Source: Amyelois transitella
Taxonomy: Eukaryota; Arthropoda; Insecta; Lepidoptera; Pyralidae
Direction of reading: 5' to 3'
DNA: 64,000 nt
Assembly: GCF_032362555.1 (NCBI RefSeq)
Contig: NC_083508.1
Span: 9,639,001-9,703,000 of the forward strand
A program made the position numbers and the translations under genes. The notes beneath the pieces are model-generated. The model did no database searches and was not told where the DNA came from. It worked only from the letters and a program-made list of their open reading frames with translations. This document shows, in pieces, positions 58,495-61,400 of this stretch (positions are counted from its first letter, which is position 1; each line of letters starts with the position of its first letter).

Positions 58495-61400
58495 ATGGCT
58501 ATGCAAAATGGACATTCTAAATCTATGGATATTGTGATTGTTGGAGGCGGTTTGGTAAGTACATACATACATATAATCACGTCTATATCCCTTGCGGGGT
58601 AGACAAAGCCAACAATTTTGAAAAAACTGATAGGGCTACGTTCAACTGTTTATGATAATTGAGCTTAAAATAGTGACACGTTTCTAGCGCATCACCTAAA
58701 AGACTAATCCCAACTTTATAAGCCTATACCCTTAGTCGTCTTTAACGACATCCATGGGAAAGGGATGGAGTGGTGGTTTGGTAAGTCAATCTTTAAATTA
58801 TAACTTCTCACGCATAATAATTTACCTACTTATTTAGGCACCAATATTTTTACTATTTTTGAATAGGTTCTGTAAATATCATTTAATCATATTTTACAAA
58901 GTTAAGAAAAAAAATGTGCAAGTCACATTTATGTGCCTTTAAAAATTATGAGCCTTTGCCAACGACTTCGTTGAAATATATATATGGGAGAAATACATAT
59001 AGTATTATTATCCAATTTTATCCCATCCTCGTACGAATCAGGTTATCTCAGTACAATTTGATAAATTTATAAACGTGTAACTTTTGAACCTTGTGAAGTG
59101 ACCTTTTCAGACCCGTGGTAGCAATAACTATGATATATCTATATATTTTTTTTTTTTTTTTTTTTCAGCTATCGTGTATAAAGTGCGGATAAAGATCCGC
59201 ACTTTATACACGATAGCTGAAAAATCAGTTTTTGCACGATAGTGACAAAAGTATCACTGTATTGAGCTATGGCCTGTTTGTCTTGAAGAAATAAGAGCGT
59301 TGGTAGTCGGTAATCGATTAAAATGCGTGATGCGCAGAAAGGCACAGGTTCTAAACCCCGGCCATGTACCAATGACTATATGTAAGTTATGTACATTAGT
59401 TTGAATACTAACCGATGCTATTACGGTGAGGGAAATAATCGTGAGGAAACCTGCGCTTTCAGGAAACTGGATTTGTAATTATGGTAAAAGGTTTACCTGC
59501 AAAGGTTGCGGAGGGCAGATGAGAGTCATTTTGTGTAAAAACTTGACTCACCCAATTCAGGGTCCGGTGGTGAGGCTGCAACCGGGACTAAAAGCCAGGA
59601 GGAAGAAGATGATTGAAGAAATATAATATTTTCTTCCAGGTAGGATCTCTCGAAGCCCTTTACCTAGCTAAAAGGGGTCATCACGTGCGGCTGTATGAAT
59701 ACCGAGAAGGTAAGATAACAATCTGCTTTTAAATTGGACAGGTGTCACTTTTTATAGGTGCGAAATTGTTTTCGAAGAAGTTATCTTATAAATGAATTAA
59801 GTGCTTGATTTAAGCAAATTGTAATTAAACGCTACCATTAATAAAATGGCTTCATTGACAACACTTCGTGGAATATAATAATCAAGGTTGTATGGAATAA
59901 AAATCAGCATAAAAGATCGTATGAAATAAAAATCATCATAAAATAATGTTTTATTAGATATAGTTAGTTGAAATATTTCTTTTTATTAAGGTACCTGTGT
60001 CGAATATGGCCAGCCGAAAAATATGGCCACATCCTAATATTACAAATACGAAACATAGTTAGAATCTGATCGTTGCGCGCCATGTTGGTGGCCCAAGGTC
60101 GTATTTGAACGGCGCACCCGCAGGGCGCCCCACCCTCTCCACAGTCGCTCAACGGGCATCACAGTGGAAAGGTGCATCGCTGCTCTTAAAAATCGCAAGT
60201 AAGTTTTTTGCTATATTTCTTTAGTTTTTCGATTTAGTGCATATTTATTCACGTTGTCAGGTGGCACAGTTATCGTATTTCGATATTTTCTTTGTCATTT
60301 ATGAAAGTATCCATGTGTTTTTGGTCAGAGTGAGGTTAAGCATAAAAATCCTATGACTGAAAATATAACCAGCAACTGGCCATATTGCATGTATGATTTT
60401 TTTCATTCTTAGTAACATTTTCTTTTTTAGATATGCCGCGATACAAAAGTAAAGGTATTCGGAGTAATTGGTCAGAAGATGACATGAAACGAGCAATTGC
60501 CGCTGTCAAACGTGGTGTGAAGATATACACGGCTGCCAAAAACTATAACATCCCAAGGCGCACGTTAAGACGTTATTTATTAGAGAAAAAGACTACGAAG
60601 TCTACTTTAGGCAGAAAGCCGCTTTTAAACGAAGCACAAGAGAGAGATTTGGCTTCCCGTATTATCCGTTTATGCCATGTGGGGTATCCGCTAACACAAC
60701 GGGTACTACGCACTTGTGTCAAGACGTTTTGCATTCAAAACAATGTTTCAGTATCGAGTCGAGGCTTAATGGTTGGACGAGATTGGCTAAGAGGTTTTCT
60801 AAATCGACATAAAAATATCAAAATCTGAACCCGGCACGCGCCGCAAAGCTGAATAAAGTCGTAGTTGCTGACTATTTTGCCAAATTAAAAAAGACTATGG
60901 AAGAAAACGACGTTTTGAATAAACCTGAGAGAATTTTCAATGTTGATGAGAAAGGCTGTCAGCTTAATTTACATAAAGCACCACAAGTTTTAGCGGAACG
61001 TGGAACAAAAAGAGTACACCTAGTGGCGCCGGAACATGGTGAAAATGTGACTGTAGTCTCATGTGGCAGCGCTTTAGGCCACGCTATCCCCCCAATGATT
61101 TTGTTCAAGGGCAAAAGAATGAAACCTGAATGGATTGATTCTTTACCTACAGGGTCAATAGCTCAAATGACTCCCAAAGGCAGTATGAATACTGAAACGT
61201 TCGTGAACTGGTTACACCACTTCGCCAAATTTAAACTATCAGGACCTTGTGTTCTTATCTTTGACGGTGCTAAATGCCATCTGGACTATACCATAGTTGA
61301 AGTTGCAGAGAAATTCAATATAAAACTTTTCTGTCTTCCCAGCAACACAACACATGAGCTGCAGCCGATGGACAAATCGGTTTTTCATTCGTATGAGTAT

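Follow-up and report, generated by a model that had tools for sequence, protein, structure and literature searches.

In the genome of Amyelois transitella, a splice donor copied by the insertion of a SINE-like repeat is found at the end of exon 1 of a gene that reads as kynurenine 3-monooxygenase (KMO). The two copies of the donor lie on either side of the repeat, within an exact target-site duplication. The arrangement is probably an old retrotransposition scar that carries a mostly silent spare donor, and one of a few natural matched donor pairs. The analyzed window, i.e. the whole stretch of DNA considered here, comprises 64 kb of an assembly that totals 327 Mb and is divided into 33 contigs.

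The identity of the gene was derived from its predicted protein. Joining of the coding part of exon 1 (58495–58554), exon 2 (59640–59709, starting in phase 0) and exon 3 (63686–63879), all on the + strand, yielded a KMO-like protein, whose best match in the PDB was kynurenine 3-monooxygenase 5x68 (phmmer, E 8.2e-28). The FAD_binding_3 family scored above its cut-off and a KMO-like N-terminal FAD-binding sequence was present. As judged from these sequence matches, the gene with the duplicated donor is KMO. KMO-like open pieces with splice-like ends were recognized by eye, piece by piece, over the next 7 kb up to the final stop. No in-frame stop interrupted the KMO exons examined, which were read as separate pieces from the window end and from locus L049 rather than as an end-to-end assembly; the downstream coding exons, as open pieces recognized by eye, appear intact. 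Since the KMO protein reading demands the donor at 58555, the upstream donor is the one predicted to be in use. We take KMO to be cinnabar. In Bicyclus, cinnabar is described as belonging to the ommochrome pathway of the eyes (PMC10256707).

The 12-nt sequence GGTTTGGTAAGT occurs exactly twice in the whole 64-kb window, both times on the + strand, at 58549–58560 and 58775–58786; a third copy, reverse complement included, was found on neither strand of the window. The first copy comprises the last 6 nt of exon 1 and the donor at 58555, and the second one contains the spare donor at 58781, apparently still in its ancestral intron context (GTAAGTCAATC). Between −6 and +6 the two donors do not differ. 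Both copies adjoin the ends of a 214-bp antisense SINE-like repeat, and their match cannot be lengthened at either side. The final T of the duplication could equally come from the (TACA)n tail side, which leaves a length of 11 to 12 nt. The initial annotation had proposed that a SINE insertion copied the last 6 nt of exon 1 together with GTAAGT while the upstream junction remained functional; its coordinates proved right, the 12-mer pair being exact, and the KMO reading indeed joins from 58555.

To judge the duplication against other copies of the repeat, 52 of 112 repeat hits could be used, namely those with 75 or more aligned bases and sufficient flank whose alignment extended to consensus position 255; the others were dropped. 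An exact terminal duplication of at least 9 nt was present in 14 of the 52, the KMO copy among them. When flanks were swapped between copies, matches of at least 9 nt appeared in 11 of 2652 mismatched pairs and of at least 12 nt in 2 of 2652, even though this control used a looser placement than the KMO match, which abuts the repeat exactly. Because mismatched flanks rarely match over such a length, we attribute the GGTTTGGTAAGT pair to a real target-site duplication. Loose searches can give one chance 11-nt duplication per some tens of kilobases, and the two 12-mers might in principle be a chance or recombination repeat; their exact contact with the repeat on both sides and the outcome of the flank swap make such an origin extremely improbable, and it was rejected.

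The inserted repeat (58561–58774, − strand) is antisense to KMO, and it is the end at 58561 that carries the (ATGT)n tail. A family consensus of 262 bp was built from 38 fetched copies. The KMO copy begins at consensus position 43, i.e. without the first 42 positions, and is therefore 5'-truncated, as are many others of the family, which start at many different consensus positions. A 264-kb sample was composed of the window, 20 kb downstream of it and 180 kb at fixed positions (20 stretches of 10 kb were fetched). In this sample the family gave 112 hits in 109 separate intervals, covering 5.7% of the bases, which places it among the commonest sequences of the genome. The repeat carries the marks of a retroposon, namely a flanking target-site duplication, a 3' tail of simple repeats and frequent 5' truncation, and the label "SINE" rests on its length, the occurrence of antisense and sense copies, the 3' microsatellite tail, the 5' truncations and the duplications. 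Rfam gave no match anywhere in the window at gathering scores. The exact repeat pattern, sought in viral_contigs as a viral family yardstick, was absent there.

Other repeats surround the first exons. A second copy of the family lies about 300 bp upstream, at 58117–58266 on the + strand, in the opposite orientation to the one at 58561–58774 (−). Exon 1 thus sits between inverted repeat copies, with 86-nt arms of 73% and 54-nt arms of 80% complementarity, and a hairpin around it could form in the pre-mRNA if the transcript starts upstream of the 58117–58266 copy. Another diverged copy, 75% identical to the one at the donor, is found at 63391–63592 in intron 2. Intron 1 also contains a perfect inverted repeat with 30-nt arms and a 4-nt loop (59161–59224), in which a T run and CAG resemble an acceptor; no further copy of it was found in the 264-kb sample. 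Immediately upstream of exon 2, a different dispersed repeat, SINE-like by eye, occupies a large part of intron 1 (59331–59625), and sequence resembling it was seen in 9 of the 20 stretches of 10 kb. In intron 2, a 3.3-kb element resembling a DNA transposon with inverted ends extends over approximately 59989–63260. Its two open frames, 60433–60828 and 60897–62516, resemble by eye a pogo-type transposase and, behind it, a PHD-like finger, and the element was present as a single copy in the 264-kb sample.

The KMO copy differs from the family consensus by 19 substitutions in 212 positions (9.0%). At 18 of the 19 the base is rare, no more than 14% of the other copies aligned at that position carrying it, and the remaining difference is a common variant; the private divergence amounts to about 8.5%. 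On account of the number of differences and the rarity of 18 of them elsewhere, the insertion is old. The mutation rate of butterflies is about 3e-9 per site and generation. At this rate the age would be about some tens of millions of generations, which makes a polymorphism within the species unlikely; genotyping of individuals within the species, as had been suggested, is at such a divergence unlikely to reveal an empty site. The spare donor is unmutated. Under neutrality, a private divergence of 8.5% leaves a probability of no change of 0.34 for the 12 sites and of 0.54 for the 7 donor bases. Among the testable copies, exact duplications of at least 9 nt were retained in 5 of 8 below 5% divergence, in 6 of 18 at 5–8%, in 2 of 6 at 8–11%, where the KMO copy is one of the two, in 1 of 10 at 11–15% and in 0 of 10 above. 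With a probability of 0.34 and perfect duplications that are not rare at a like divergence, the intact spare donor is no sign of selection. Selection preserving the spare donor is not supported, its retention being compatible with neutral decay.

The two donors are 226 nt apart, and division by 3 leaves a remainder of 1. Use of the second donor would thus add 226 nt and shift the frame, as the initial annotation had stated. Read from the first ATG through the second donor, the frame encounters TAG as codon 36, at 58600–58602; translation would end with codon 35, and the stop lies 181 nt ahead of the new junction. The repeat itself contains an ATG (58754–58756, + strand) that shares the frame of exon 2 when splicing proceeds from the second donor; the nearest upstream stop in its frame is at 58733, and its product would read MGKGWSGGL and then VGSLEA. 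The FAD-binding fold of such a product would lack its first strand, and for this reason the protein is unlikely to work. As to the choice between equal donors, older in vivo experiments with duplicated donors reportedly favored the intron-proximal one. In PMC6783452, where this older work is itself labeled conflicting evidence, a human reporter library with both donors set to the consensus is described, in which the first donor was predominantly used; at equal strength, the first of two donors was favored. Donors of equal sequence compete in these tandem 5' splice sites as they would in KMO, whereas the constructs, as described there, are designed human reporters in K562 cells, not insect genes, with a spacing not known to match that of KMO.

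The same arrangement is found elsewhere in the genome. The whole assembly was searched for exact matches to GTAAGTACATACATACATAT, i.e. a GTAAGT donor immediately before the antisense tail. The pattern occurs at 31 places, of which KMO is one, and the other 30 were all fetched. In 28 of these 30 the repeat is present at the tail (it is absent in L070 and L078). An exact duplication containing the donor sequence is found in 6 of the 30 (L073, L079, L080, L089, L090 and L098, the far copy of L098 being without the final T). Three more have a duplication with one mismatch (L081, L083 and L097), which in L081 falls inside the donor. The duplication of L082 is doubtful, and no convincing one was found at the remaining 18 places.

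Four of the six exact duplications stand behind exon-like sequence; in three cases the assignment relies on an open frame combined with an acceptor-like site, in the fourth on a weak Ig match. At L099 (the same place as L073) and L101 (L080), a GC-rich frame stays open as far as the donor and is accompanied by an acceptor-like site. At L100 (L079), such a site comes with an open stretch of 41 nt. The sequence at L104 (L089) is Ig-like and matches I-set weakly, scoring below the curated cut-off (E 0.033). The first three exon peptides used in searches, among which the 13-residue piece of L100 was not included, all lacked a match in Pfam, and two of them lacked one in the PDB. The second donor would add 249, 262, 271 and 274 nt in the four cases, and in all five, KMO included, the assumed frame meets a stop when the second donor is used. 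In three further exon-like cases, L102, L103 and L105, the repeat lies directly behind the donor with no clear duplication, so that 8 of the 29 repeat-bearing places (the 28 and KMO) look exonic. L103 (G000:C5:1196669-1198600) is a MORN-repeat exon (E 8.2e-12), where one repeat copy is apparently nested in another, and L105 (G000:C15:3725331-3727400) is an ATG7-like exon (E 8.3e-30), where GTAAGT is at once followed by the antisense repeat. The view of the hit in KMO as singular is not supported, the same arrangement being present at 4 of the 30 other fetched places. Donor-spanning duplications seem to form a small recurrent class in this genome. As GTAAGTACATACATACATAT detects just antisense copies with an intact tail directly behind GTAAGT, the true number of cases may be larger.

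The recurrence raises the question of whether donors are hit above chance, as would be expected if the nicking enzyme of the partner LINE preferred donor-like sites such as GTAAGT. From the 23 tails and 211 GTAAGT (both strands) in the 264-kb sample, about 11 places combining the two were expected, against 31 observed, and exon-like sequence lies upstream in 8 of the 29 repeat-bearing places, KMO included. The expected count, however, rests on the small number of 23 tails, and a T directly before the tail, seen in 19 of the 23 sampled cases, alone raises it. Moreover, the exact duplications of the unbiased sample begin with many different sequences, and the exon share is biased upward by the preservation of real donors. 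The counts thus hint at a preference for GTAAGT, which we do not claim and regard as very unlikely.

The main alternative to a silent spare concerns its use: if the second donor were substantially used, the early-stop product would lower KMO output, and the insertion could act as a hypomorphic allele or a regulated switch with an effect on pigment. The identity of the two donors from −6 to +6, the intact spare in a repeat that has diverged by 9% and the stop at 58600, which would suit a decay switch, are in line with this possibility. The spare donor is likewise unmutated in the four exon-like cases elsewhere, which regulated use would also predict, though neutral decay allows for it. Against such a role stand the open exons of a gene that carries an old insertion, the stops met on second-donor use in the four similar cases too, the preference of the human library for the first donor (PMC6783452) and the retention of the spare within neutral expectation. 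The predicted RNA fold over both donors (58430–58850) was ordinary as well (z −0.53). We therefore consider substantial use of the spare donor unlikely. Less likely still, and hardly to be expected, is that donor-spanning SINE insertions are a class retained genome-wide with the second donor as a spare or regulated switch, and that the KMO spare could give an N-terminally replaced protein from the ATG at 58754. A visible pigment effect through the splice balance, which had been suggested for KMO, does not find support, to the extent that a prediction can be drawn from an old insertion, open exons and human reporters that prefer the first donor. These points together with the truncating parallels favor a silent or near-silent spare.

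For the mostly silent spare, the following sequence of events is proposed. A SINE-like element would have inserted antisense to KMO, probably by target-primed reverse transcription, at the target GGTTTGGTAAGT, a stretch that included both the end of exon 1 and the donor. Fill-in of the staggered cut would have copied GGTTTGGTAAGT and so produced two donors alike from −6 to +6, the upstream one of which would keep the original exon and frame. This upstream donor would win, since it comes first in the transcript, lies next to the true exon and has equal strength. The downstream donor would remain a rarely used spare, and the long product, which stops after 35 codons, would probably be removed by nonsense-mediated decay, so that the old insertion may be effectively neutral. 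The class would be recurrent because of the very high copy number of the family and because a donor stays intact when a duplication spans it.

Among published systems, the canine merle SINE in PMEL appears to be the closest parallel seen. It is an antisense insertion with a 15-bp duplication at the intron 10/exon 11 acceptor (PMC7349775), and thus shares with the KMO insertion the antisense orientation, the position where exon and intron of a pigment gene meet and a target-site duplication at the splice site. The merle SINE is tRNA-derived and, as described there, the outcome of splicing is governed by competition between two sites. In merle, however, it is the acceptor that was hit, the competing acceptor lies inside the SINE, a long tail displaces the branch point and the phenotype is proven; in KMO, the donor was duplicated, the competitor is the other copy of the duplication and no phenotype is known. 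The KMO insertion is the donor-side mirror image of merle. As for the repeat itself, (ATGT)n-tailed SINEs of Lepidoptera are described as present in high copy number, with old copies (PMC8010984), and one of them, SfSE1, of 298 bp, has a 3' end in common with PxSE5 and the partner LINE. The KMO repeat resembles SfSE1 in its tail unit, its length (262 versus 298 bp), its high copy number and its old copies; this likeness to a published description is a lead to possible membership in SfSE1. Introners recruit splice sites from target-site duplications (PMC9860276). According to that description they insert in exons and create new introns, whereas the element in KMO hit an existing donor and merely lengthened the intron. 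Our limited literature searches, to which this statement is confined, recognized neither a donor-duplicating SINE nor a SINE insertion at a KMO donor in Lepidoptera.

What is new here is the recurrence of natural donor pairs, rather than the KMO case itself. The latter shows one way for a SINE to hit a splice donor yet leave it unbroken. Each such insertion represents an in vivo pair of locally identical donors, 226 to 274 nt apart in the five cases, and these five pairs could show which of two equal donors wins in insect genes, the first one or the one nearer to the acceptor.
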